Assembly: GCA_022508605.1 (NCBI GenBank)
Contig: JAFLUX010000022.1
Span: forward strand, 1 to 34,898
From: Bacteroidales bacterium
GTDB lineage: Bacteria > Bacteroidota > Bacteroidia > Bacteroidales > UBA932
Direction: 5' to 3'
DNA: 34,898 nucleotides
Each line of letters begins with the position of its first letter. The first letter of the stretch is position 1. The notes under the pieces were generated by a model, which saw nothing but the letters and a program-made list of their open reading frames with translations, was not told the origin of the DNA and did not search any database. Both the position numbers and the translations under genes were made by a program. Below, one piece after another: positions 1-12,095 of this stretch.

Positions 1-188
1 ACTGGGACTACAAGAACACTATCGACTTTGCCCACGACAAGGGCTTTGAGGAAGGGCTGGCTGCTGGTGAAGCAAAGCTGGCCGAAGAGCAGCGTGCCAT
101 AGCAAAGAGGTTATTGGTCGCGGGAGTGTCTGTTGAACTCGTTGCCGAGGGAACCGGCCTGACGCTTGAACAGGTAAAAGAGTTATAG
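1..188 (+). CDS. Rpn family recombination-promoting nuclease/putative transposase, C-terminal end (partial)
   Basis: The reading frame is open from the window edge (first full codon at position 3) to TAG at 186-188, giving about 61 residues. The visible tail has a charged, Gly/Glu/Ala-rich helix (FEEGLAAGEAKLAEEQ), then a small helix-turn-helix-like end (AGVSVELVAEGTGLTLEQVKEL). That combination is the usual C-terminus of the Rpn/PD-(D/E)XK 'transposase' proteins that are common and variable in Bacteroidales. The catalytic nuclease domain would lie left of the window and cannot be checked. In that family the tail is a linker plus a 'does the cell step to the next residue' type motif; no function is claimed for this copy. 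It ends about 210 bp from the 3' end of a tRNA gene on the other strand. Family call is from the tail only. Confidence 0.6.
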   Translation, partial: WDYKNTIDFAHDKGFEEGLAAGEAKLAEEQRAIAKRLLVAGVSVELVAEGTGLTLEQVKEL

Positions 189-350
189 GAAAGCTGAGAA
201 AGTATTCTTACGGTTTTGTCTTTTATTTCGGTTGAAGGGCAGGGTACAGAATTGGAATCTAAACGGGACTGACTGGCGAGGTACAGCGTTTCGCGTTCTG
301 ACCAACTGAAAAATGTCCATTATACCCTTATACCTTGTTTCCAACATTAC

Positions 351-394
351 CAAAAAAGAAAACGGACAAACCGCCGATTTCAGCAATTTGTCCG
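351..394 (-). terminator. Intrinsic terminator of tRNA-Asn
   Basis: Read on the minus strand, arms CGGACAAA (387-394) and TTTGTCCG (363-370 on the plus strand) form a perfect 8-bp stem with a 16-base loop. It is followed at once by a T-rich run (TTTTCTTTTTT, plus-strand 351-362). The hairpin begins 4 bases after the CCA end of the tRNA, which is the expected place for its terminator. Confidence 0.8.
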
Positions 395-397
395 CTT

Positions 398-474
398 TGG
401 CTCCCCCTCGGGGACTTGAACCCAGGACCCCCTGATTAACAGTCAGGTGCTCTAACCAACTGAGCTAAGGAGGA
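398..474 (-). tRNA. tRNA-Asn (anticodon GTT), CCA encoded
   Basis: On the minus strand the sequence folds as a standard tRNA. The acceptor stem TCCTCCT (468-474) pairs with AGGGGGA (402-408) with one T-G wobble. A D-arm with AGCTCAGTTGG and a T-arm with GGTTCAAGTCC are present. The anticodon loop CTGTTAA puts GTT at plus-strand 438-440. The discriminator base is G, and the CCA end (398-400) is encoded in the DNA. It reads AAC/AAT asparagine codons. Its own promoter lies at 504-534 and its terminator at 351-394, so it looks like a single-gene transcription unit. Confidence 0.95.
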
Positions 475-503
475 ATATTTCAACCGCCATTTGAACGGGA
501 TTG

Positions 504-534
504 CAAAGTTACTGCGTTTTTTCGGAAATGCAAA
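504..534 (-). promoter_or_regulatory. Bacteroidota-type promoter for tRNA-Asn
   Basis: On the minus strand a -33 TTTG (plus 531-534) is followed after exactly 19 bp by TAACTTTG (plus 504-511), matching the Bacteroidota consensus TTTG-N19-21-TAnnTTTG. Transcription would start about 20-30 bases before the tRNA 5' end. Confidence 0.75.
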
Positions 535-587
535 TTTTTTCATGATTTTTTTATCCCGCACTATCGGGGAGCCGCGGGGCAAGTTGT

Positions 588-619
588 TTTGCGCAAGTCG
601 AGGATTATTGCTATTTTTG
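588..619 (+). promoter_or_regulatory. Bacteroidota-type promoter for the HU-like gene
   Basis: TTTG at 588-591, 20 bp, then TATTTTTG at 612-619 matches the -33/-7 consensus. The -7 box ends only 8 bases before the ATG at 627, so the mRNA would have almost no leader. If the true start were the in-frame ATG at 651, the leader would be about 25 bases. Confidence 0.65.
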
Positions 620-626
620 CCTTGTT

Positions 627-1847
627 ATGGATGCGGTTTTTTTGTCTCGTATGGTCCGGGAATTGGTCCGGGAGCATGATTCCTTGTCTTTGCCGGGCTT
701 GGGCACCTTCGAAGTCGAGGACGTGCCGGCCGCGTTTTCCGACAGGGGCTATACGGTCAATCCTCCATACCGCAGCCTTTCTTTCTCGGGAAAGAAAACG
801 GATGACGGACTGCTTGCCGGTCTATATGCGCGTGATAACGAGTCTGTTAGCATTTCCGATGCGGACGGGATAATAAGAAATTTCGTGGCAGGGCTTGCGG
901 ATACGCTCCGCGCGGACAAGTACGTGGAACTTCCAGGTCTCGGCAGACTGCGCGCAACGAAGGAAAACGTGCCGTTCTTCGTTCCCGATGACGGTCTGGA
1001 CATATCGCCTGAATCCTGCGGACTGCCGCAGGTGTCGCTTCGTACGCGCCGCAGCGCGGATTTGCCCCCGCTTCCGTTCGTTTCTGATGGGGCCTCCCCG
1101 GAGCGGGCATCTTCCGCGATCCTTCCGGCAGACGTGCCCATTGCTGCTGCACAAGTTGTAGCTGCGCCCGATGCTGCGGAGTCCATTGCCGCTGTGCCAG
1201 TTGTTGCTGCACCTATTGCTGCTGCCGCTGATGCGGCTGCATCCGAAGCCTTGAAACCTATTGCTGCCGCCGAGGCGGTTGCGCCTATTGCCGCGGAACC
1301 TGCTACTGCGGTCCTCGACACTGCTGTACCTGTTGCCCCCGATGTAGCTGCGCCCATCGCTGCCGTACAAGTTGCGGCAGTTCCCGATGTAGCTGCACCT
1401 GTTTCCGCAGAACCTGTTGCCGCCGCACATGATGCGGTTGCGCCGAATGTGGCTGTGCCGGCGGCCGTTGCTTCCGATGCAGTCGCCGCCGATTCGCAGG
1501 AGCATGCGTCGGCATCTTCCGTCCATGCGGCCGCTGTGGACGGTTTATCGGTCGGTGCGGATTCCGCCTCGGAAAGCGTCCTTGAGGATGCGGCCTCCGA
1601 ACCTGTGGCATCTTCGCGTGATGAGTCTCCGGAAGATTCGACGGAAAAAGTCTCCTCCGCCTCGGGCAGCGGCATGCATCCGTTGCTGAGGACGGTGCTC
1701 TTGCTGATTGCCGCCGCACTCGTGATTTTGGCCGTTTTTACCGCAGTTTCCCGTATATTCCCCGGTTCTACCGACTTCCTTCTGTACAGTCCGGAAGAAT
1801 TGGAAATACTGAATTACCCAGAGAATGGAATTGGTCTACCCGGTTAG
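627..1847 (+). CDS. HU-like (CCDC81-type) domain protein with Ala-rich linker and C-terminal membrane anchor
   Basis: A 406-residue protein. Residues 1 to about 125 carry two HU-like halves typed by two 'PGLG' turns: SLPGLGTFEVE near residue 25 and ELPGLGRLRA near residue 108. This is the pattern of the Bacteroidota HU-CCDC81 family. From about residue 165 to 290 the chain is a low-complexity Ala/Pro/Val stretch made of degenerate AAP-IAA-type units, followed by a Ser/Glu-rich part. A single hydrophobic segment (TVLLLIAAALVILAVFTAV) lies near residues 355-373, with a short tail after it. Relatives often end in a peptidoglycan-binding SPOR domain outside the membrane; none is seen here. If the domain assignment holds, the HU part is cytoplasmic and the tail periplasmic. 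An alternative start is the ATG at 651. The stop is 1 base before the next likely start. Confidence 0.75.
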   Translation: MDAVFLSRMVRELVREHDSLSLPGLGTFEVEDVPAAFSDRGYTVNPPYRSLSFSGKKTDDGLLAGLYARDNESVSISDADGIIRNFVAGLADTLRADKYVELPGLGRLRATKENVPFFVPDDGLDISPESCGLPQVSLRTRRSADLPPLPFVSDGASPERASSAILPADVPIAAAQVVAAPDAAESIAAVPVVAAPIAAAADAAASEALKPIAAAEAVAPIAAEPATAVLDTAVPVAPDVAAPIAAVQVAAVPDVAAPVSAEPVAAAHDAVAPNVAVPAAVASDAVAADSQEHASASSVHAAAVDGLSVGADSASESVLEDAASEPVASSRDESPEDSTEKVSSASGSGMHPLLRTVLLLIAAALVILAVFTAVSRIFPGSTDFLLYSPEELEILNYPENGIGLPG

Positions 1848-1848
1848 T

Positions 1849-2385
1849 ATGGCTCCGCTTCTGCAAGGCGGAAAGGCGGAGAAGGAAATGCTTCCTGTCG
1901 TGGATGCCACCGGCGCTGTAGTGGCCCGGGCGCCGCGCTCCGTGTGCCATGACGGCAGCAAGCCGCTTCACCCCGTCGTGCATCTTCATATCCTCGACCG
2001 TTACGGGCGTCTGTATCTTCAGAAGCGCGCCGCGACGAAGGACCTGTATCCCCTTTACTGGGATACGGCGGTCGGCGGTCATGTGGAATACGGGGAGTAT
2101 CTGAGCGAAGCCCTTTTCCGCGAGGCCTCCGAAGAGCTCGGTTTCTATGACTTCAATCCCATACCCCTGCGTTCCTACGTATTCGAGTCCCCGGTTGAAA
2201 GGGAACTTGTGAACGTGTTCGGGGCCGTGGGCAATTTCAATCTGCACCCGGACGGGGAAGAGGTTGCAGAGGGGCGCTGGTGGGAGCCCGATGACCTTGA
2301 ATCCGCTTTCGGGAAAAATGTGCTCACTCCCAACTTCGAGCAGGAGTTTCCCATGATTAAACACGGCCTTCTGGCGCTTTTGTAA
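1849..2385 (+). CDS. NUDIX hydrolase
   Basis: A 178-residue protein. It carries a full Nudix box at about residues 80-102 (GHVEYGE, then REASEELGF), which fits GX5EX7REUXEEXGU, the Mg2+-binding site for cleaving nucleoside diphosphates linked to another group. The N-terminal part (HPVVHLHILDRYGRLYLQKR) resembles the isopentenyl-diphosphate-isomerase-like/YfcD branch of the family, but the substrate cannot be read from sequence. The start at 1849 is preferred because it follows the previous stop directly; an in-frame ATG at 1825 would overlap the upstream gene by 23 bp. The stop TAA overlaps the next ATG (TAATG at 2383-2387), so it is probably translated together with the DUF4922-SpoIID gene. 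Confidence 0.85.
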   Translation: MAPLLQGGKAEKEMLPVVDATGAVVARAPRSVCHDGSKPLHPVVHLHILDRYGRLYLQKRAATKDLYPLYWDTAVGGHVEYGEYLSEALFREASEELGFYDFNPIPLRSYVFESPVERELVNVFGAVGNFNLHPDGEEVAEGRWWEPDDLESAFGKNVLTPNFEQEFPMIKHGLLALL

Positions 2386-4481
2386 TGGACCGGATAGGCA
2401 AATTCATACAGGACCAGCTTTCGGTCTGGCCTTTGGCTGCGGCAAATTTCCGCGCTCTGAAATTCATGCAGACGCGGCCTGTGATGCTTGGAGGACTGGA
2501 GGTGCGTATCCAGCACAATCCGTCGCGCATATTGTCCAGCACCGCAATGACTGACGAGTCGTCCATAGCCGCAAGGCCATGTTTTCTGTGCGAGGCGAAC
2601 CGTCCTGCGGAACAGTTCCATCTGAAGTTCGAGGGCCGCAAGGGGCGAAGCTACAACATCCAGGTCAATCCGTATCCTATTTTCAGCAAGCACCTTGTGA
2701 TTGCCCGCAAGGAGCACGTCCCACAGGCGATATGGCATCATCTGCCCGATATGCTCGACTTCGCCTGCACTTACCAGGACTTCACGGTTTACTACAATGG
2801 CCCGAAGAGCGGCGCCTCGGCCCCGGATCACTTGCATTTTCAGGCGGTGCCGCGAAATTCCCTGCCGCTCGAAACGGCCGTAGACGCCTTTCTGAATGCT
2901 CCTGGGAAGGCGCTGGCGAGCGTGAAGGACGCGACCCTGTATCATTATCACGGCTTCACCCGCGGCGTGTACTGCATCAAGGCGGAAACCACGAAATCTT
3001 TGGCCAAACTGTTCTACCGCTTCCTCGACTGCTGTCCGGCGGAGGACGAAGGCCTGGAGCCCCGTTTCAACCTGTATGCCTGGTTCGATGCCACGCTCAT
3101 GGAATACCGTGCGCTGGTGGTGCTTCGCTCCAAGCAGCGTTCCCACCACTACTATTCGGAGGGTGCCGACCGCCTTACGATAGGCCCGGGCGCCGCCGAG
3201 ATGGCGGGGGTGTTTGTCGTCCCCAAGGAGGAAGACTACCAGAAGGTGGATTCCGGGCAGCTTGCCGAGATGTTGGATGAGGTGAGCATAGGCCCGGAGG
3301 ATGAAAAGATGATAGATTCCCGCCTCACAAGGCGTCAGCCGCTGCTGGAAGTCGGAATAATGTCGGCGCCCAGCATCAGGTTCGAGATTGTCTCCGACGG
3401 GGCCGGCCCGCAGTGCGTGAGTGCGGAAGGCGGCCGTATCAATTACAACGGGGTGCTGTATGATGAGCTGTATTTCGACTCCGTCACACGTTCCACCCTG
3501 TTCGCCGAGGCTTCTTTCATACTCTACGATGTGCCGATAGGCATAGATTTCCATTGGCAGCGAACGCAGGACCAGAGTTTTGCCGGTTCGTTGGTTTTCA
3601 TAGCGGAGGGCGACAGAGTCACGGCCATCAACCGGGTGGGCTTGGAAGACTACCTGCTCAGCGTAATATCTTCGGAAATGAGTGCCGGCGCTTCGCTGGA
3701 GTTCCTGAAAGCCCACGCGGTAATATCCCGCAGCTGGGTAGCAGCAAGGATGCGCGACCGCTCGGACCCCTCGCAGGCTGAATCTGAAGTGCCGCACGGA
3801 CGCTATGACGTATGTGCCGATGATCACTGTCAGCGCTATCAGGGACTTACCCTGGCAGTGGGGGAGACGGTGCGCAAGGCAATAGACCAGACATGGGGGC
3901 AGCTGCTTGTCTACGAAGGACGTATATGCGATGCCCGTTTCTCAAAATGCTGCGGAGGACGCACCGAGCTGTTCAGCACCTGCTGGGAGGACAGGGATTA
4001 TCCGTACTTGCAGAGCGTCGAAGATCCGTGGTGCGACTGCAAGGATGAGTCAGTGCTCTCCTCGGTGCTGAACGACTACGATCTGGAGACTACGGATTTT
4101 CACGACTGGGAGCAGCGGTACGGCATAGACGAGCTTTCCGAGCTCGTGCGCAGGCGCACCGGCACCGATTACGGAACCATCACGGGACTCGAACCGCTTG
4201 AGCGCGGTGCATCGGGAAGAATAAAGTATCTGCGAATCACGGGCACGGCCGGAAGCGGGGTCATAGGAAAGGAACTTGCGATACGCCGGGCATTGAGCGG
4301 CTCGCACCTGAAGAGTTCGGATTTCGAAGCGGTGTTCGACGGAGACACCGTGCTGCTAAAGGGGCGCGGATGGGGCCACGGGGTTGGCCTGTGCCAGATA
4401 GGCGCCGCCGTGATGGCTGCGGAAGGATTTACATACAGGGAAATACTAAACCATTACTACAAAGGTGCGGAAATCGTTTGA
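2385..4481 (+). CDS. DUF4922 (HIT/GalT-like) domain fused to SpoIID/LytB domain
   Basis: A 698-residue, two-part protein. Residues 1 to about 310 are DUF4922-like: a CxxC pair (Cys66, Cys69) and the motif DHLHFQ with His149, His151 and Gln153. This recalls the His-x-His-x-Gln active site of GalT and Ap4A-phosphorylase-like HIT enzymes. From about residue 327 to the end is a SpoIID/LytB domain: EDYLLSVISSEM with the likely catalytic Glu431, the SKCCGGRTE region, and the closing GWGHGVGLCQIGA near residues 662-675. SpoIID proteins are lytic transglycosylases or amidase enhancers that act on peptidoglycan glycan strands. No signal peptide or membrane segment is visible, which is odd for a wall enzyme and suggests action on imported fragments in the cytoplasm. 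It overlaps NUDIX by 1 bp and the AmpG-like gene by 17 bp. Confidence 0.8.
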   Translation: MDRIGKFIQDQLSVWPLAAANFRALKFMQTRPVMLGGLEVRIQHNPSRILSSTAMTDESSIAARPCFLCEANRPAEQFHLKFEGRKGRSYNIQVNPYPIFSKHLVIARKEHVPQAIWHHLPDMLDFACTYQDFTVYYNGPKSGASAPDHLHFQAVPRNSLPLETAVDAFLNAPGKALASVKDATLYHYHGFTRGVYCIKAETTKSLAKLFYRFLDCCPAEDEGLEPRFNLYAWFDATLMEYRALVVLRSKQRSHHYYSEGADRLTIGPGAAEMAGVFVVPKEEDYQKVDSGQLAEMLDEVSIGPEDEKMIDSRLTRRQPLLEVGIMSAPSIRFEIVSDGAGPQCVSAEGGRINYNGVLYDELYFDSVTRSTLFAEASFILYDVPIGIDFHWQRTQDQSFAGSLVFIAEGDRVTAINRVGLEDYLLSVISSEMSAGASLEFLKAHAVISRSWVAARMRDRSDPSQAESEVPHGRYDVCADDHCQRYQGLTLAVGETVRKAIDQTWGQLLVYEGRICDARFSKCCGGRTELFSTCWEDRDYPYLQSVEDPWCDCKDESVLSSVLNDYDLETTDFHDWEQRYGIDELSELVRRRTGTDYGTITGLEPLERGASGRIKYLRITGTAGSGVIGKELAIRRALSGSHLKSSDFEAVFDGDTVLLKGRGWGHGVGLCQIGAAVMAAEGFTYREILNHYYKGAEIV

Positions 4482-5730
4482 CAAATCACCATGGGCCTGG
4501 GTCCCCACGCTTTATTTCGTCGAGGGCCTGCCGTATTTCATCGTGAATACCATATCGCTGATAATGTTCAAAGATATGGGCATGGACAACGGCACTCTGA
4601 CCCTGCTCACCAGCCTTATAAGCATACCGTGGGTAATCAAGCCGCTGTGGAGTCCTTTCGTCGACATTTTCAAGAGTAAACGCTGGTGGATACTCTCCAT
4701 GCAGTTCATCATGCTCGCGGCGATAGCCCTGATAGCGGCTTCTGTGCAGTTCTCGACTTTCAGCATAACGATAATCCTGTTCGTGGTGGCGGCATTCGCA
4801 TCCGCCACGCACGACATAGCAGCCGACGGTTTCTACATGCTCGCCCTCGACAGCCGCCGTCAGTCGGCATTCGTGGGCATAAGGAGCACGTTCTACCGCG
4901 TGGCGTCCGTATTCGGGCAGGGAGTGCTCGTGGTAATGGCAGGGGTCCTTGAAAAAAAGATGGGCGACATCCCTGCGGCATGGTCGGCAACGATGATAGT
5001 GTCATCCGGCATACTCGCAGCCTCGGCATTGTACCATGCGTTCGCACTGCCGATCCCGGCGGATGACCGCCCCTCCGGGAATCTGCGCTCGGCTCCGGAT
5101 GTCGCGAGGGAGTTCGCCGGGGCCTTCGTTTCCTTCTTCAAAAAGAAAGGCGTGTGGCTCGCGATAGCATTCATGCTGCTGTACCGTCTTCCGGAGGCTT
5201 TCTCGGTGAAACTGCTCTTTCCGTTTTTCCGCGATCCGGTTTCCGAAGGAGGACTTGGGTTCAGCACCGACATGTACGGAATCGTGTTCGGAACATTCGG
5301 CGTGGCGGCACTGCTTGCCGGCGGTATACTCGGAGGGCTTGTCGCAGCCCGTCATGGCCTCCGCAAATGTCTGTGGCCTATGGCATTGTCGCTTGCCCTG
5401 CCATGTGCCGTATACCTGTACATGAGCATAGCAAGGCCGGAGAGCATCTGGGTTGCCGGCGCATGCGTCGTCTTCGACCAGTTCGGCTACGGTTTCGGCT
5501 TTTCCGCCTATATGCTCTATATGATGCATTTCTCGCAGGGCCCGCTGAAAACCTCCCACTACGCCATTTGTACTGCATTCATGGCTCTCTCCATGCTGCT
5601 CCCCGGACTCGTGGCAGGCTACCTGCAGGAGGCCCTCGGATATATTGGATTTTTTATACTCGTGATGATATGTTGTCTCGCCACTTTTTCAGTTACATTC
5701 TTTGTGCGGCGGCGCTTGCCGTCGGAATAA
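4465..5730 (+). CDS. AmpG-like muropeptide permease (MFS transporter)
   Basis: A 421-residue integral membrane protein with about 12 hydrophobic segments. The start of the chain (WVPTLYFVEGLPYFIVNTIS) and the loop ATHDIAADGFYM are typical of the AmpG branch of the major facilitator family. AmpG imports GlcNAc-anhydroMurNAc (muro)peptides from the periplasm in proton symport, the entry step of cell-wall recycling. The start is GTG at 4465, inside the end of the upstream gene; the next Met is far into the first membrane helix. The 3' end overlaps the NamZ-like gene by 61 bp. Neighbours that act on peptidoglycan support the muropeptide role over a generic sugar role. The exact substrate (disaccharide, MurNAc or peptide-linked) is not visible. 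Confidence 0.8.
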   Translation: MRKSFDKSPWAWVPTLYFVEGLPYFIVNTISLIMFKDMGMDNGTLTLLTSLISIPWVIKPLWSPFVDIFKSKRWWILSMQFIMLAAIALIAASVQFSTFSITIILFVVAAFASATHDIAADGFYMLALDSRRQSAFVGIRSTFYRVASVFGQGVLVVMAGVLEKKMGDIPAAWSATMIVSSGILAASALYHAFALPIPADDRPSGNLRSAPDVAREFAGAFVSFFKKKGVWLAIAFMLLYRLPEAFSVKLLFPFFRDPVSEGGLGFSTDMYGIVFGTFGVAALLAGGILGGLVAARHGLRKCLWPMALSLALPCAVYLYMSIARPESIWVAGACVVFDQFGYGFGFSAYMLYMMHFSQGPLKTSHYAICTAFMALSMLLPGLVAGYLQEALGYIGFFILVMICCLATFSVTFFVRRRLPSE

Positions 5731-6923
5731 ATGTCCGCGCTCAGGTAAAGCCGGGAATAGAAGTGCTCCGCGACCGCGGTTTCGATGGACTGCGGGGCAA
5801 GCGCGTGGGCCTGTTGACCAACCCCAGCGGAGTCGACAGACAGCTCAAATCGACTATAGACATACTCAGGGAAAACGTCAATCTCGTGGCCCTTTATGCT
5901 CCTGAGCATGGCGTAAGGGGGGATGTGTGGGCCGGAGGCAAGGTGGAGTCTTCCATAGACGCCGCCACCGGACTGCCGGTGCATTCTCTGTACGGGGCCA
6001 CGCGCCAGGCCACGCCGGAAATGATGAAGGGCATCGACATAATGGTATACGACATTCAGGATGTCGGCACCCGCTCATATACGTTCATAAGCTGCCTGGG
6101 ACTGCTTATGCGCACCTGCGCCACACTCGGGATTCCGGTGATGGTGCTCGACCGCCCGAACCCCCTCGGAGGTCTCAAGGTGGAAGGCCCGCTTGTGCGC
6201 GACGGCTTTTATTCCTACGTAAGCCAATACCGCATCCCGTATGTCTACGGCCTTACTGTCGGCGAAGTGGCGATGCTGATTAACGAGGAGGGACTGAACC
6301 GCGGCCAGCAGGGAAAGGACCTTCCCCTGCGCTGCGACCTTACCGTCGTCCCCATGGAGGGGTGGGAGCGCTGGATGACCTATGAAAAGACCGGCCTGCC
6401 GTGGGTCATGCCATCCCCCAACATCCCTTATCCCCGCAGCGCCCTCTGCTACCCTTGTGCCGGCCTTACCGGGGAGTTCAACAACTACCTCAATATAGGC
6501 ATAGGGTATACCATACCTTTCGATGCTTTTGCCGCAGAGTGGATAGATGCGGACAAACTGAAAGAGAGGCTGGACAGCTACAGGGTTCCCGGTATCGCAT
6601 GGAGGACGGTGCACTATACTCCTTTCTACGGAAGCAGCGCCCGCAAGCTCATCCACGGGGTGCAGTACTATTTCGTGGACTACGAGGCCGCACCCATCAC
6701 GCTCATCCAGTTTTACGTTATGCAGGCGGTGCATGAGCTGTATGGGAAAAACCCTTTTGAGCTGTCCGCCGACCGATTGTCAATGTTCAATAAAGTTTGT
6801 GGAACGGATTTTGTCAGCAGGGAATTTGGCAAGCGTATGAAAGTCTCGGATATCATCACATATTGGACTGCCGATGCCGAGGCGTTCAAGGCGCTGTCGA
6901 AGAAATATTACCTGTACAATTAG
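5670..6923 (+). CDS. namZ: DUF1343 protein, NamZ/YbbC-type exo-beta-N-acetylmuramidase
   Basis: A 417-residue protein with a Sec signal peptide (MLSRHFFSYILCAAALAVGI...RA, cut before Gln25 or close to it). The mature chain shows the DUF1343 marks in order: LLTNPSGVD, YAPEHGVRGD, YDIQDVGTRSYT, and DRPNPLGG. Founding members (Bacillus subtilis NamZ/YbbC) remove MurNAc from the non-reducing end of peptidoglycan chains. Export to the periplasm fits a role of making products for the AmpG-like permease encoded just upstream. The frame is open much further upstream, but the start at 5670 is chosen because it gives a clean signal peptide and a family-normal length. That places the signal peptide inside a 61-bp overlap with the permease gene. 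Function is inferred from the family. Confidence 0.82.
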   Translation: MLSRHFFSYILCAAALAVGINVRAQVKPGIEVLRDRGFDGLRGKRVGLLTNPSGVDRQLKSTIDILRENVNLVALYAPEHGVRGDVWAGGKVESSIDAATGLPVHSLYGATRQATPEMMKGIDIMVYDIQDVGTRSYTFISCLGLLMRTCATLGIPVMVLDRPNPLGGLKVEGPLVRDGFYSYVSQYRIPYVYGLTVGEVAMLINEEGLNRGQQGKDLPLRCDLTVVPMEGWERWMTYEKTGLPWVMPSPNIPYPRSALCYPCAGLTGEFNNYLNIGIGYTIPFDAFAAEWIDADKLKERLDSYRVPGIAWRTVHYTPFYGSSARKLIHGVQYYFVDYEAAPITLIQFYVMQAVHELYGKNPFELSADRLSMFNKVCGTDFVSREFGKRMKVSDIITYWTADAEAFKALSKKYYLYN

Positions 6924-6948
6924 CGCAAGCTGCAAAAACCACTGACTT

Positions 6949-8427
6949 ATGAAACACTTGAAAAGATTCGCAGCGATGATGGCGGCAGCCGCCGTCCTTG
7001 CTCTTCCTCTCGGTGCACAGTCTCGTGGCCGTTCATCTTCGGGGCACAGTGCCGCTTCGGGCGGTGCTACCAGCTCTTCCCGCCATTCATCGGGCGGCTC
7101 CAATATGCAATCCGGTCATTCCGGCAGCGTCTCGCGTGCCTCAGGCAGCAGTTCGAGGCGCTCATCGGATGCGTCATCGTCTTCATCGGCAAAATCCTCT
7201 CCGTCGGGGAGCCTTTCCCGTTCTCCCGAGGGAGGAAAACATGGCGGCACCTCTGCATCATCATCGAGGCAGCGTCCTGCGGCGTCCGGGGCTGCGGCGT
7301 CCAGGCCGTCTGCCCGTCCCTCCCACGGCGCCCGTCCTGAATCTCCTGCACATTCGGCTTCGCGCCCCTCGCCGGGCCATTCTGCCGGAAGTCATGCATC
7401 CCGCCCCTCGCCGGGTTCTTCTGCCGGAAGCCACGCTTCCCGCCCCTCACCGGGTTCTTCTGCCGGAAGCCACGCATCGCGCCCCTCGCCGGGCCCTTCT
7501 GCCGGAAGCCATGCTTCCCGTCCCTCGCCGGGCTCTTCTGCCGGAAGCCACGCTTCGCGTCCCTCGCCGGGCAGTCAGGCTCATCGCCGGACCCCTCCGG
7601 TGCATGTCCCCGGGAACGTACATTCATCGTCCAGACCATCGCCCGGCTCCCGCCCTTATGCGGACGGAGGCCATAAACGCCCCGAGCCTTCGCGAGTGCA
7701 CGTGAATCCTCGTCCCGGCATGGCCCCGGTCCCTCCCGGCCGCGCACCTGTACGCCGTCCGGTGGTGCTCCGCTCCCGCCCCGCACCGTTCCTGCATCAC
7801 GGGGTGCATGGCTACGGACACTACATACACGCGCTTCCGGCGCATTATGAGGTCCGGCATTTCCACGGATGCGACTACTATTTCTGCAACAATATATGGT
7901 TCGTGCTGCGCGGCGGACGCTATTTCGTATGCAGACCGCCTTTCGGATATGTATTCACGCCTCTTGCCGATGCCGTTTTCACGGCTTGCAGTTTCGCATA
8001 TTTTTTCGACAGGATGTATTACTATGATACGGTCAACGACAATGCCCGTCTCATACAGGAGCAGAACAGCACCATCGCCGCCAACAATGCATTGATAGCG
8101 GCGCAGAACAGCACCATAGCGGCCAATGCCGGACTTGCCCTTGCAAGCAGTTCCCTCGCCAACTCCCTCGGGCTCGTCCAGAGCTTCGCCAACGCAGGCA
8201 CCGAGTATTTCTACAACGACGGGGTGTTCTATGTCAGGGCTGCCGATGGCCAGTACACCGTTATCGTTCCGCCGGCAGGGGCCCTTGTGGACAGCCTCCC
8301 GGAAGATTACGAACTCATAGAGCTTGGCGGGGCCACTTACTACAAAGTCGACAATACCGTTTACAGGACTACGGTTACTGAAAGCGGAAAGGCATGTTTC
8401 GAGGTTATAGGCCAGCTTACGGAATGA
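6949..8427 (+). CDS. Secreted Ser/Pro/His-rich repeat protein, DUF6515-like C-terminus
   Basis: A 492-residue protein. Residues 1-23 form a signal peptide (ALPLGA then QS). Residues about 24-270 are low complexity, rich in Ser, Arg, Pro, Gly and His, and include five full copies of the 13-residue unit SRPSPGxSAGSHA. Then come aromatic stretches (YYFCNNIWFVLRGGRYF), a 14-residue double-heptad repeat around QNSTIAAN (about residues 372-399), and a C-terminus with two 'Y-Y...G-V/T-Y-Y' units and VPPAGALVDSLPEDYE. The last part resembles DUF6515 proteins of Bacteroidota. Function is unknown. It is probably periplasmic or surface-attached. It lies 25 bp after the NamZ-like gene and 1 bp before murI, so it may be co-transcribed with both. 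Confidence 0.65.
   Translation: MKHLKRFAAMMAAAAVLALPLGAQSRGRSSSGHSAASGGATSSSRHSSGGSNMQSGHSGSVSRASGSSSRRSSDASSSSSAKSSPSGSLSRSPEGGKHGGTSASSSRQRPAASGAAASRPSARPSHGARPESPAHSASRPSPGHSAGSHASRPSPGSSAGSHASRPSPGSSAGSHASRPSPGPSAGSHASRPSPGSSAGSHASRPSPGSQAHRRTPPVHVPGNVHSSSRPSPGSRPYADGGHKRPEPSRVHVNPRPGMAPVPPGRAPVRRPVVLRSRPAPFLHHGVHGYGHYIHALPAHYEVRHFHGCDYYFCNNIWFVLRGGRYFVCRPPFGYVFTPLADAVFTACSFAYFFDRMYYYDTVNDNARLIQEQNSTIAANNALIAAQNSTIAANAGLALASSSLANSLGLVQSFANAGTEYFYNDGVFYVRAADGQYTVIVPPAGALVDSLPEDYELIELGGATYYKVDNTVYRTTVTESGKACFEVIGQLTE
7360..7578 (+). repeat. 39-bp tandem repeat (13-residue unit) inside the secreted protein gene
   Basis: Five full 39-bp units begin at 7360, 7399, 7438, 7477 and 7516, with a partial sixth from 7555. 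Each encodes SRPSPGxSAGSHA. Units differ mainly at third codon positions and at the x residue (H, S, S, P, S). Copy number may vary between strains. Confidence 0.9.
8062..8145 (+). repeat. 42-bp repeat encoding a double heptad
   Basis: Two units of 14 codons begin with CAG AAC AGC ACC at 8062 and 8104 (QNSTIAANNALIAA, then QNSTIAANAGLALA). The 14-residue period equals two heptads, which suggests a short coiled coil in the secreted protein. Confidence 0.7.
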
Positions 8428-8428
8428 C

Positions 8429-9175
8429 ATGGCTACTGTAGGGGTTTTCGACTCAGGCTCCGGCGGACTGTCGGTTCTCAGGGAGATTCGCAAACTTCTC
8501 CCTGATGACCGTTTCGTCTACTATTCCGACAACGCCAGCTGCCCCTACGGGGACAAAAGCCCCGAATTTGTGACGGCACGCAGCAGAGACATCACTGACT
8601 TCCTGATTTCCAGAGGCGCCCAGGCGGTGGTCGTGGCCTGCAATACGGCGACGGCTGCCGCCATCGGCACTCTGCGCTCGCTCTACGACATACCTTTCAT
8701 AGGGATGGAGCCTGCAATCAAGCCTGCCGTTTCGGCCTCGCGCAGCGGTGTGGTGGGCGTGCTTGCCACAGCTGGCACGCTGAAAGCGTCCAAGTATCTC
8801 GACACCAAGAGACGCTGCGGGACTTCGGTGCGCATAGTGGAAGGTGTGGGACGCGGCTTCGTTGAACTCGTGGAGTCCCTCGAACTCGACGGACCCCGGG
8901 CCGAAAGCATAGTAAGGGAGGCCGTGGGGCCTATGCTCTCTGCCGGTGCGGACATAATCGTGCTGGGATGCACGCATTATCCGTTTTTGCTGCCTCTGCT
9001 GCGGCGCATCGCTCCTCCGGAGGTGAGTTTCTACGACCCTGCCCCGGCAGTTGCCCGCCGTCTCAGGGTGGTTCTGCAGGAACGCGGGATGAGCCTCGGA
9101 GAACCGTATCCCCATACGGAACTGCATGCTTCGGGACCGGATGACACATTGAAAAAACTGTTCAGTATTATATGA
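8429..9175 (+). CDS. murI: Glutamate racemase
   Basis: A 248-residue protein that converts L-glutamate to D-glutamate for the peptidoglycan stem peptide. It begins with the family's GVFDSGSGGLSVL and carries both catalytic cysteines, in ACNTAT (Cys71) and GCTHYP (Cys181). Early acid residues (Asp and Ser of FDSGSGG) and the YYSDNASCPYG loop are also present. It acts in the cytoplasm. It starts 1 base after the upstream stop and ends in an ATGA overlap with the dipeptidyl-peptidase gene. Its place downstream of the AmpG/NamZ genes puts new wall precursor supply next to wall recycling. Confidence 0.95.
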   Translation: MATVGVFDSGSGGLSVLREIRKLLPDDRFVYYSDNASCPYGDKSPEFVTARSRDITDFLISRGAQAVVVACNTATAAAIGTLRSLYDIPFIGMEPAIKPAVSASRSGVVGVLATAGTLKASKYLDTKRRCGTSVRIVEGVGRGFVELVESLELDGPRAESIVREAVGPMLSAGADIIVLGCTHYPFLLPLLRRIAPPEVSFYDPAPAVARRLRVVLQERGMSLGEPYPHTELHASGPDDTLKKLFSII

Positions 9176-11154
9176 AAGCAAAATTTGTTATGACCGTTTC
9201 AGCGGTGCTGCTTTCGGCAGCATGCGGCCGCACGGAGGCCGGATTCAAGTATACCGTGGACCAGTTCGCGGATGTGAAGATAATAAGGTACAAGGTTCCC
9301 GGCTGGGAGTCGCTGAGCCTTCAGCAGAAAGAATACGCCTATCATCTGGCTGAGGCCGCAAAGTGGGGAAGGGATATACTGTGGGACCAGAACTGCCGCT
9401 ACAACCTGAGGCTGCGCCATGCGGTCGAGGACATTCTCACAAACTATTCCGGAGACCGCAAGTGCAGCGAGTTCGTGGCTTTCGAGGAGTATGCCAAGAG
9501 GCTTTTTTTCAGTAACGGCATACACCATCATTATGCGGAAGACAAGTTCTTTCCCGGATGCGACAGCGCATATTTCGAAAAACTTCTCGATGCGGTGGGG
9601 CGTTCGGAAGAGGCCGGATTCCTGATTTCCTATGTATACGACCCCCTCGTCTGTCCCCAGAGACGCAGCACTTCGCAGGATGGGGACATAGTCGAGCTGT
9701 CTTCGGTCAATTTCTACGAGGGAGTGAACCGCGAGGAGGTTGAGGCCTATTACGCGTCCATAGCCGACCCCTCCGACAAGACGCCGGTGTCCTATGGACT
9801 CAATACGAAAGTCGTGAAAGAAAACGGAGAGGTGGTAGAGAAACCCTGGAAGGTAGGCGGCATCTACGGCCCTGCGATAGAAAAAATATGCGCCGAACTG
9901 GAACTTGCCCGCAAAGTCGCGGAAAACGACACACAGAAATCGGCCCTCGGACTGCTGATAGAGTATTATCGCAGCGGCGATTTGCGCAAGTGGGATGAAT
10001 TCAATATCGAGTGGGTGAAAGATACGCTCGGCACCGTGGACTTCGTGAACGGATTCGTGGAAGACTACAATGATCCTCTCGGGCGCAAAGGCTCATGGGA
10101 GGGACATGTGAACATCAAGGACGCCAAGGCTTCCGAGCGCTCCTCCATTTTGAGCGCCAATGCCCAGTGGTTCGAAGACAACTCGCCTGTCGACCCACGA
10201 TTCCGCAAAGCCAAGGTTAAAGGCGTGAGTGCGAAGGTCATAAATGCTGTGTGCCTTGCCGGAGATGCGTATCCTGCCACCCCCATAGGCATAAATCTTC
10301 CCAATGCCGACTGGATACGCCGCGATCATGGCTCCAAGAGCGTCACCATAGCCAATATCTCCCATGCCTATGATTATTCCGCGGAGGAGGCCCCGGCGAG
10401 CGTGCTGACCGAATTTGCCTGGGATGATGCTGAAATAGCGCGGGCGAAAAAATACGGCTCGTATGCAAGCGAAATCCATACCGACCTGCACGAATGTCTG
10501 GGCCATGGCTCCGGCCAGTTGCTCAAGGGGGTGTCGAGTACGGCCATGGGAGAGTATTCGTCTGCCCTTGAAGAGTCCAGGGCCGATCTTTTCGGACTCT
10601 ATTACGCCGCTGACCCGAAGCTGGTGGAACTGGGAATAATGCCCGACGGAGAGGCCTACAAGGCGGAGTATGACAATTTCATACGCAACGGTCTCATGGT
10701 GCAGTTCAACAGGGTGGAGCCGGGCCGTCTCAATACGGAAGCCCATATGCAGGACCGCAAACTGATTGCGGAGTGGTGCTACCGGCAGGGCGAAGGCAAG
10801 GTCATCGCGCGCAAGGTGCGGGACGGCAAGACCTATTTCGTGGTGGAGGACTACGAGGCGCTGCGCGGCCTGTTCGGCAAGCTGCTCGCTGAAATCCAGC
10901 GCATAAAGTCAGAGGGCGACTACGAGGCCGGCAAGGCCCTTGTGGAAAACTATGCGGTGCATATCGATCCTGCCATTCACAGGGAAGTCCTCGAACGGTA
11001 TTCGGCGCTTAATCTGAAGCCGTACGGCGGTTTCATAAATCCTGAGATAGTTCCGGTGGAGAAGGGCGGAGTAATCACCGACTACGAAATCCGCTACACC
11101 GATGACTACCTCGGACAGATGCTCGAATACGGAACGAAATACCGCACGCTCTGA
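9172..11154 (+). CDS. Dipeptidyl-peptidase III-like lipoprotein (peptidase family M49)
   Basis: A 660-residue zinc peptidase. It has the M49 zinc motif HECLGH (His440, Glu441, His445) followed by GSGQLL, and the second metal motif EESRAD with Glu467/Glu468, 26 residues further. These are the DPP III signature; the family removes dipeptides from the N-terminus of oligopeptides. The N-terminus looks like a lipoprotein signal (LLSAAC, Cys19), so the enzyme is probably tethered in the periplasm, unlike the cytosolic eukaryotic enzyme. Homologues in Bacteroidota are sometimes mislabelled dihydrofolate reductase. It overlaps murI by 4 bp. Its 3' end converges on tilS with a gap of 17 bp, where only a short GGCGC/GCGCC hairpin (11155-11167) is seen. 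Confidence 0.88.
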   Translation: MKAKFVMTVSAVLLSAACGRTEAGFKYTVDQFADVKIIRYKVPGWESLSLQQKEYAYHLAEAAKWGRDILWDQNCRYNLRLRHAVEDILTNYSGDRKCSEFVAFEEYAKRLFFSNGIHHHYAEDKFFPGCDSAYFEKLLDAVGRSEEAGFLISYVYDPLVCPQRRSTSQDGDIVELSSVNFYEGVNREEVEAYYASIADPSDKTPVSYGLNTKVVKENGEVVEKPWKVGGIYGPAIEKICAELELARKVAENDTQKSALGLLIEYYRSGDLRKWDEFNIEWVKDTLGTVDFVNGFVEDYNDPLGRKGSWEGHVNIKDAKASERSSILSANAQWFEDNSPVDPRFRKAKVKGVSAKVINAVCLAGDAYPATPIGINLPNADWIRRDHGSKSVTIANISHAYDYSAEEAPASVLTEFAWDDAEIARAKKYGSYASEIHTDLHECLGHGSGQLLKGVSSTAMGEYSSALEESRADLFGLYYAADPKLVELGIMPDGEAYKAEYDNFIRNGLMVQFNRVEPGRLNTEAHMQDRKLIAEWCYRQGEGKVIARKVRDGKTYFVVEDYEALRGLFGKLLAEIQRIKSEGDYEAGKALVENYAVHIDPAIHREVLERYSALNLKPYGGFINPEIVPVEKGGVITDYEIRYTDDYLGQMLEYGTKYRTL

Positions 11155-11171
11155 GGCGCGGGGCGCCGGGT

Positions 11172-12095
11172 TCAGCTCTCTCGCTTTTTGACTAGTAGGA
11201 TTCTCCTTCGTGCCTCTATGATGTGCGAAGGAGATTCGAATTTTTTCCCGCTCAGGGTGACGGTGCCCGGCTTCTGCGTCCTGTATTTTTCGAGCAGTAT
11301 GCACAGCTTCCCGAATGTGGGGGCGCTGAACGAGCATCCCTCGATTATGCGCCACAGGACGTAACGCCAGTGTTTGAGGGCGAGAAGCCCCATGACTTTG
11401 ATTTCCACCGCGCCGTCGCCCCCGGACACGATTTGCGATGCCGCGCTGCGGTAATACTCATCAGCGATGTCATCGGTCTGGCGTATCCTCTCCATGTCTT
11501 CTTCGAGGGTGCGTATGAAAGACGGATTGATGTCTGCGAACAGCGGGAAGACGAGGTTGCGTATCTTGTTGCGCTTGAAATCGCTTTCGGCGTTGGTGCT
11601 GTCTTCCCGCCAGCCCAAGCCTTTTTCCTGCATCCATTGCAGGATTTCATCCCGTTCGGTGCCGAGCAGGGGCCTTACTATGTTTCCTGATGCGGCAGGG
11701 ATACCCCGCATGCCTTTGGTGCCTGTGCCTCTGAGCAGATTGAGTATCAGGGTCTCGGCGTTGTCGCAGGCATTGTGTGCCGTTGCTATTTTGTCCGCCC
11801 CGGTCTCGACCCGCAGTTTTTCAAACCACCCGTAGCGCAGCTCCCTTGCGGCCATCTCCACCGAGATGCCCTTTTCGGAGGCATGTCCGAGGGTGTCGAA
11901 ACGCTGTACGAAACAGGGGATTCCCGAACGCCCGCACTCCCTGACGACGAAGGCCTCGTCGGCATCGGACTCCTCTCCGCGCAGGCGGAAATTGCAGTGA
12001 GCGACGGCGAAAGAAGCCCCCGGGAACAACTCGGGGGCTCTGTGCAGCATGTACATGGAGTCTATGCCGCCGCTTACGGCAAGGAGCACCTTCAT
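11172..12095 (-). CDS. tilS: tRNA(Ile)-lysidine synthetase, compact form
   Basis: A 307-residue PP-loop ATPase that changes C34 of the tRNA-Ile(CAU) anticodon to lysidine so that it reads AUA. Residues 1-13 hold the PP-loop (VSGGIDS), and HCNFRLRGEESDADE and ATAHNACDNAETLILNLLRGTG are the family's next motifs. Most relatives in the order are well above 400 residues with a C-terminal TilS_C domain; here the chain ends soon after GTVTLSGKKF...RRRILLVKK, about where that domain should begin. Short forms exist in other bacteria (Aquifex). The start ATG overlaps the stop of the DUF3078 gene (TGATG). A GC-rich inverted repeat lies in its first 80 bases. The genome uses AUA very heavily, so this enzyme should be essential. 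Confidence 0.9.
   Translation of the reverse strand: MKVLLAVSGGIDSMYMLHRAPELFPGASFAVAHCNFRLRGEESDADEAFVVRECGRSGIPCFVQRFDTLGHASEKGISVEMAARELRYGWFEKLRVETGADKIATAHNACDNAETLILNLLRGTGTKGMRGIPAASGNIVRPLLGTERDEILQWMQEKGLGWREDSTNAESDFKRNKIRNLVFPLFADINPSFIRTLEEDMERIRQTDDIADEYYRSAASQIVSGGDGAVEIKVMGLLALKHWRYVLWRIIEGCSFSAPTFGKLCILLEKYRTQKPGTVTLSGKKFESPSHIIEARRRILLVKKRES
12015..12039 (-). repeat. 8-bp GC-rich inverted repeat in the 5' part of tilS
   Basis: Arms AGCCCCCG (12015-12022) and CGGGGGCT (12032-12039) are perfectly complementary with a 9-base loop. In the minus-strand mRNA the hairpin lies 56-80 bases after the tilS start and is followed by TCTTTC, a weak U-tract. It may slow or partly end transcription after the DUF3078 gene; this is not shown. 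Confidence 0.45.

Follow-up and report, generated by a model that had tools for sequence, protein, structure and literature searches.

The window analyzed here is a stretch of 34,898 nt from a Bacteroidales bacterium (UBA932; assembly GCA_022508605.1, contig JAFLUX010000022.1, positions 1 to 34,898). It contains a unit of four genes encoding a NUDIX hydrolase, a DUF4922-SpoIID fusion protein, an AmpG-like permease and a NamZ-type exo-beta-N-acetylmuramidase. A first, sequence-only reading had interpreted this unit as a peptidoglycan salvage pathway, and our analysis supports that interpretation. The explanation we tentatively favor, with a probability of about 0.38, is that the unit salvages peptidoglycan sugars and that NamZ and the AmpG-like importer feed a cytosolic Apa2/SpoIID fusion that replaces AnmK and perhaps NagZ. 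The firmest new result is the pairing of DUF4922 with a long class of SpoIID proteins, whether the two are linked or unlinked.

This pairing was found in two genome samples, one drawn from the order (198 genomes) and one from the phylum (395 genomes), with G000, G059, G105 and G165 common to both. We defined "long SpoIID" as a Pfam match spanning at least 300 nt, a class set up after the SpoIID table had been seen; a second, shorter SpoIID class is present in other genomes of the order. In the order sample DUF4922 was present in 43 genomes, long SpoIID in 43 and both in 42, and the corresponding figures for the phylum sample were 57, 57 and 55.

A GT2 protein completes a three-part module. In relatives, GT2, DUF4922 and SpoIID occur as separate genes, as double fusions or as triple fusions. 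The protein search with the fusion scored 7999 of at most 8000 candidates, so that it gives only a minimum number of relatives. Loci from relatives were retrieved with the fusion protein itself, taking the best 80 of 131, so that this set is biased towards the fusion; the DUF4922 part was present in 70 of 79 such loci, hereafter the fusion-selected loci. The triple fusion GT2-DUF4922-SpoIID occurred in 12 of these 70, nine of the 12 on records named Prevotella or Prevotellaceae. In a further 42 DUF4922 loci, those taken from the order sample, GT2 was fused or no more than 3.5 kb away in 34, and AmpG (30 loci), SpoIID (26) and NamZ (12) lay within the same distance. These stretches, some of which end at contig ends, encoded MurK in 20 cases and MurQ in 12. 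Four loci (L118, L121, L133 and L136) carry complete GT2-DUF4922-SpoIID-AmpG-NamZ-MurT-MurK-MurQ arrays. We count the phylum-wide pairing, the triple fusions and this clustering of the module with AmpG, NamZ, MurT, MurK and MurQ in relatives from the order in favor of the salvage explanation. No membrane segment was predicted by hydrophobicity in any of 53 GT2 partners from relatives. Two further loci deserve mention. L118 (12343-15210) encodes a glycolate/D-2-hydroxyacid-dehydrogenase-like protein between NamZ and MurT, which would suit lactate released by MurQ, and on a contig named Pirellulales, outside Bacteroidota, GT2, DUF4922 and SpoIID are consecutive (L068:7484-11484).

The fusion protein gave a structure model with a predicted local distance difference test (pLDDT) score of 87.6. 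The modeled fold of its DUF4922 half, together with an HxHxQ rather than an HxHxH motif, places this half in the Apa2/HIT-transferase branch. It shares the fold over 265 residues and the DHxHxQ motif with the yeast Ap4A phosphorylase Apa2 (4i5t, 4i5v), but identity is only 16% and, unlike Apa2, the window's domain is fused to SpoIID. Residues H149, H151 and Q153 were unchanged in 26 of 26 aligned proteins. The Pfam profiles Ap4A_phos_N (22.3 against a cut-off of 23.1 bits) and ATP_transf (17.9 against 23.5 bits) came near but stayed under their cut-offs, and NCBIfam gave no model for DUF4922. The second half belongs to the SpoIID/LytB family by fold, domain score, catalytic glutamate and zinc ligands. 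All five functional residues of Clostridioides difficile SpoIID are retained in the alignment, and the corresponding E431, H471, C477, H481 and C482 were likewise unchanged in 26 of 26 proteins. The catalytic role of E101 in C. difficile SpoIID is described in PMC6221140. The C. difficile and Bacillus SpoIID structures (5i1t, 5txu, 4rwr) show the same fold and catalytic glutamate, with the H/C/H/C zinc set in the C. difficile enzyme. A role of the SpoIID half as a LytB amidase enhancer was discarded, since its basis was the Tannerella forsythia annotation only.

The C. difficile and Bacillus enzymes are extracytoplasmic sporulation proteins, whereas the window fusion lacks the signal-like, hydrophobic N-terminus expected of an exported SpoIID and combines the SpoIID domain with a nucleotide enzyme. 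Export was predicted for unique complete genes with a sequence rule based on N-terminal hydrophobicity. A signal-like N-terminus was detected in none of 42 separate SpoIIDs, 60 separate DUF4922 proteins and 51 DUF4922-SpoIID fusions, and in one of 12 triple fusions (L064, barely over the threshold). The same rule recognized 56 of 67 NamZ proteins. The fusion protein is thus predicted to be cytosolic, and the earlier suggestion that it acts on imported material holds as a prediction.

The gene unit proved real and more than a chance arrangement. The overlaps of 1, 17 and 61 bp between the four genes were reproduced exactly, given the start codons used. A comparison across relatives showed the order fusion-AmpG-NamZ to be conserved in the clade of the window and frequent in the order sample. 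Among 40 clade relatives with enough flanking sequence, each of them retrieved with the fusion protein, a strict rule found AmpG in place in 39, NUDIX in 35, NamZ in 34 and all three in 30. Where NUDIX seemed to be lacking, it does exist in four of the five cases (L007, L039, L045 and L046), overlapping the longest-ORF (open reading frame) start of the fusion. NUDIX lay immediately upstream in 42 of the 70 fusion-selected loci versus one of 42 order-sample loci (L116, from a genome of the same genus). The gene thus holds this position chiefly within the clade of the window, which leaves its proposed part in salvage weakly grounded. The sequence-only reading was also right about the genes of the unit but incomplete, as the same-strand run extends on both sides.

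The basic arrangement is already known from T. forsythia, in which Tanf_08345-08385 encode a xanthan lyase, two products annotated gtf, LytB (Tanf_08360), AmpG (08365), YbbC (08370), MurT, MurK and MurQ and are co-transcribed by reverse transcription PCR (PMC5388701). The earlier statement that SpoIID/LytB-, AmpG- and YbbC-type genes lie near N-acetylmuramic acid (MurNAc) catabolism genes in this organism was thus correct. The window shares the order SpoIID-type (lytB by name), ampG, ybbC/namZ: its SpoIID/LytB gene stands directly before ampG and namZ directly after. In T. forsythia murTKQ follow on the same transcript, whereas in the window's genome murQ and murK are on another contig; two genes annotated as glycosyltransferases precede the T. 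forsythia genes, whereas a NUDIX gene precedes those of the window and DUF4922 is fused to SpoIID. According to PMC7670621, T. forsythia AmpG imports N-acetylglucosamine (GlcNAc)-MurNAc and GlcNAc-1,6-anhydroMurNAc (anhMurNAc), GlcNAc-anhMurNAc is used, AnmK is not predicted, and how anhMurNAc is metabolized "remains to be explored". T. forsythia MurK was inactive on anhMurNAc in vitro (PMC5790795).

The absence of MurQ and MurK from the window had been taken as a sign of a new internal step. This was not borne out, and we rejected the view that the four genes are new for want of MurQ. The unit itself lacks murT, murK and murQ, but the genome assembly (92.7% complete, 99 contigs) encodes MurQ on contig C89 (PRK05441, 351 bits) and, directly after it, a 302-residue MurK homolog; MurT was not searched for in the genome. 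The homolog matches the solved MurK-type kinases 8oqw and 8ow9 (E about 1e-46) and is 32% identical to a relative's kinase whose gene is flanked by those of MurT and MurQ. NCBIfam gave no model for it, and an apparent absence by the PF01869 (BadF) profile was discarded, the homolog being plain against the solved kinases. What keeps a new internal step plausible is that neither AnmK nor a cytosolic NagZ-type glycoside hydrolase family 3 (GH3) gene was found in this 92.7% complete genome; GH20 and GH84 were not searched for. The single GH3 match, 683 residues long, has an N-terminus that looks like a signal (hydrophobicity 2.5). An assembly break divides the GT2 ortholog of this genome between the ends of contigs C56 and C18 (L166:3-1076 and the end of L167), separate from the salvage genes; on C18 it is adjoined by ORFs that by eye resemble an aromatic amino-acid pathway. 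A second, shorter NamZ relative is encoded on contig C25 (L115, G000:C25, 7235-8287 in the orientation used); T. forsythia likewise has two NamZ enzymes, according to a cited title.

The AnmK route, as in Escherichia coli and most DUF4922-free genomes of the order, serves the same task of bringing imported anhMurNAc into a form that MurQ can use. AnmK is a different protein family, and the route proposed here would do without the kinase step. The two are largely exclusive in the order, where AnmK was found in six of 43 DUF4922-bearing versus 129 of 155 other genomes (Fisher test, p 4e-17, not taken at face value as the genomes are related). We placed 100 of the 198 order genomes on an rpoB tree: 39 of the 42 strong DUF4922 carriers (G000, G008 and G111 were absent from the rpoB matches listed), G171, whose weak DUF4922 match (2e-6) is counted among the 43 but excluded from the tree labels, and 60 others. 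These 60 were hand-picked from the same listing and include 12 AnmK-free genomes (not all such) and two from families shared with DUF4922-bearing or weak-match genomes, the rest being taken mostly in listing order. Both traits change 12 times on this tree, and a Markov model of dependent evolution was preferred (likelihood ratio 15.7, p 0.0034); this kind of test tends to be generous when changes are few. In the phylum the exclusion is less marked, with AnmK in 22 of 57 DUF4922-bearing genomes; this count drops six weak DUF4922 matches (E 4e-6 to 9e-4), all in AnmK-bearing genomes, with which it becomes 28 of 63.

The cytosolic reading would run as follows. NamZ, predicted to be periplasmic, would trim MurNAc from wall chains outside the membrane, and the AmpG-like permease, by analogy with T. 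forsythia AmpG, would import GlcNAc-MurNAc and GlcNAc-anhMurNAc. The SpoIID half, with E431 and a zinc-braced groove, would then apply lytic-transglycosylase chemistry with water as acceptor and open the 1,6-anhydro ring to give an ordinary MurNAc sugar. We regard this ring opening as the most likely single step of the scheme. A SpoIID from Waddlia shows muramidase activity towards denuded glycan (PMC6635528), so the family can use water. The MurK and MurQ homologs of the genome would convert MurNAc into GlcNAc-6-phosphate. By its modeled fold and motif the DUF4922 half may be an Apa2-type nucleotide phosphorylase or transferase, and together with the two-domain GT2 protein encoded elsewhere it could handle the GlcNAc half via a nucleotide-sugar intermediate. 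The fusion would in this way stand in for AnmK, and perhaps for NagZ, neither of which was found in the genome. We favor this reading because it accounts for the lack of an export signal, for the genes that accompany the fusion, for how AnmK is distributed in the order and for the puzzle of anhMurNAc use in T. forsythia. A bolder form appears decidedly improbable to us: a phylum-wide, NagZ- and AnmK-free cytosolic pathway in which an inward-turned SpoIID fold hydrolyzes the anhydro ring while a reversed GT2 and an Apa2-type phosphorylase split GlcNAc-MurNAc into GlcNAc-1-phosphate and MurNAc, costing phosphate only, with uridine diphosphate recycled and all activities on one Prevotella chain.

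Several observations weigh against the cytosolic salvage reading. Of the 155 DUF4922-free genomes of the order, 26 also lack AnmK, and much of the exclusion on the rpoB tree is one clade against another. Phylogenetically independent pairs gave mostly three to four opposite and zero to one (at most two) same-way contrasts, a result short of significance (median p 0.25). Of 51 strong DUF4922 carriers outside the order, 21 have AnmK, and the module therefore cannot be a simple AnmK substitute everywhere; substitution in Bacteroidales, but not as a general rule, is plausible. A GlcNAc-MurNAc disaccharide lacks the MurNAc-GlcNAc bond that ordinary SpoIID chemistry requires. The reading leaves unexplained both the co-occurrence with AnmK outside the order and the roles of the Apa2-type and GT2 proteins. 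The GT2 partner (L063:7500-8990, model m30e366806129) models as a double GT-A fold whose top Foldseek matches are chondroitin polymerase (template modeling score 0.40 by query length, domains arranged differently), with heparosan synthase lower, and this polymerase-like model would argue for synthesis. At 20 loci outside the order, finally, ampG was near the trio in only three, while GT2 lay directly upstream of DUF4922 in 14.

These last points, with the AnmK-bearing genomes outside the order, also feed the main rival, a cytosolic cycle of synthesis and turnover or of signaling. Here the two-domain GT2 protein would use nucleotide sugars to make a soluble muro-type oligosaccharide, SpoIID would cut it and the Apa2-type domain would recycle the nucleotide sugar, the salvage genes lying near by reason of shared substrates. 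The LDSDD motif of the GT2 C-terminal domain, intact in 12 of 12 proteins, fits such a cycle, whereas in the N-terminal GT-A domain the expected DxD position reads Y-S/A-D and then Y, H or C, so that this domain may be inactive. The Bacteroidales trio moreover clusters with catabolic genes, and in the clade of the window the unit no longer includes GT2 (0 of 40 loci), though a copy persists elsewhere in this genome. On balance we hold the cycle to be rather unlikely, though ahead of the other rivals. It is unlikely that the Apa2-type domain and NUDIX serve nucleotide housekeeping (diadenosine polyphosphates, ApnA, or similar) unlinked to wall sugars, with salvage following the known NamZ/AmpG/MurK/MurQ route and an ordinary hidden glucosaminidase: housekeeping would not explain why DUF4922, linked or not, accompanies long SpoIID in 42 of 43 order-sample and 55 of 57 phylum-sample genomes, and NUDIX was seen at just one of the 42 order-sample loci. 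The least probable alternative in our view is an exported SpoIID half, active in the periplasm as a lytic transglycosylase in septation or turnover like the enzymes of Chlamydiales and Clostridium, with the fusion a gene-order accident. The five retained residues and the extracytoplasmic location of the characterized SpoIIDs (PMC6221140, PMC6635528) would suit it, but all 42 separate and all 51 doubly fused proteins lack a signal-like N-terminus, the domain shares one chain with an Apa2-type domain, and triple fusions exist.

The features of the unit and its neighbors are collected in the following table.

Table. Genes of the same-strand run and features of the fusion protein, in window coordinates.
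Feature	Positions	Strand	Basis
HU-CCDC81 domain protein, first gene of the run	627..1847	+	PF18174/PF18175 just over cut-off
NUDIX hydrolase, 178 aa, clade-specific unit member	1849..2385	+	PF00293, 51 bits
DUF4922-SpoIID fusion, 698 aa	2385..4481	+	PF16269, 178.6 bits; PF08486, 80.3 bits
Apa2-type (HIT superfamily) nucleotide phosphorylase fold, residues 1-308	2385..3308	+	structure model
HxHxQ motif, residues 149-153	2829..2843	+	aligned with Apa2 DHKHLQ
SpoIID domain, residues 316-698	3330..4478	+	
E431, equivalent of C. difficile SpoIID catalytic E101	3675..3677	+	alignment
Zinc-site residues H471, C477, H481, C482, equivalent to C. difficile H134, C140, H145, C146	3795..3830	+	alignment
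AmpG-like permease (major facilitator superfamily), 421 aa, GTG start	4465..5730	+	PF07690, 85 bits; TIGR00901, E 4.6e-50
NamZ-type exo-beta-N-acetylmuramidase (predicted), 417 aa	5670..6923	+	PF07075 NamZ_N, 266 bits; PF20732 NamZ_C, 109.3 bits
DUF6515 protein, downstream neighbor	6949..8427	+	PF20125
Glutamate racemase MurI, downstream neighbor	8429..9175	+	TIGR00067, 193.3 bits, above cut-off
M49 family peptidase, closing the run	9172..11154	+	PF03571

The profile scores of NUDIX, DUF4922, SpoIID, NamZ_N and NamZ_C all exceed the Pfam cut-offs. The NCBIfam models nearest to NUDIX are isopentenyl diphosphate isomerase and YfcD, both under cut-off, and its Nudix box, judged by eye, is presumably complete. 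The permease reached 170.5 bits on TIGR00901 against a curated 350 bits, missing the family cut-off, and its identity goes no further than "AmpG-like". The NamZ-type protein aligns to the solved structure 4k05_A (E 4.6e-131), with which it shares both NamZ domains and shows no notable difference; these domains and its signal-like N-terminus (hydrophobicity 2.4) mark it as a probable family member. The run from 627 to 11154 is longer than the four genes: HU-CCDC81 ends with a 1-base gap before NUDIX, and downstream DUF6515 follows NamZ after 25 bp, murI follows after 1 bp and the M49 gene overlaps murI by 4 bp. Promoter-like sites (6 versus a shuffle mean of 5.2) and terminator-like sites (12 versus 11.1) showed no excess in positions 1-11400. 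The wall precursor gene murI occurs somewhere in 40 of the 70 fusion-selected loci, at times on the opposite strand. The first half of the DUF6515 protein contains a long Ser/Pro/His-rich low-complexity repeat. A minus-strand open frame of 550 residues (2175-3827) faces the NUDIX and fusion genes and in all likelihood just reflects their GC-rich codon usage.

In the literature, DUF4922 was represented, by title, only by plant GDP-L-galactose phosphorylase. For SpoIID with AmpG, AnmK or Bacteroid and for AnmK with Bacteroidetes or Bacteroides, no title among the matches listed gave these proteins a function, subscription papers being mostly outside the coverage. How AnmK-free Bacteroidales use anhMurNAc is an open question in print for T. 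forsythia (PMC7670621). Our analysis supplies concrete candidates for this step, one known merely as DUF4922 and one by a generic GT2 match. Across a bacterial phylum these proteins belong to a single module, and the question can now be addressed with purified enzymes. If the proposal is true, the SpoIID fold would have an intracellular role, which would be new in that the family works outside the cell in the sources available.

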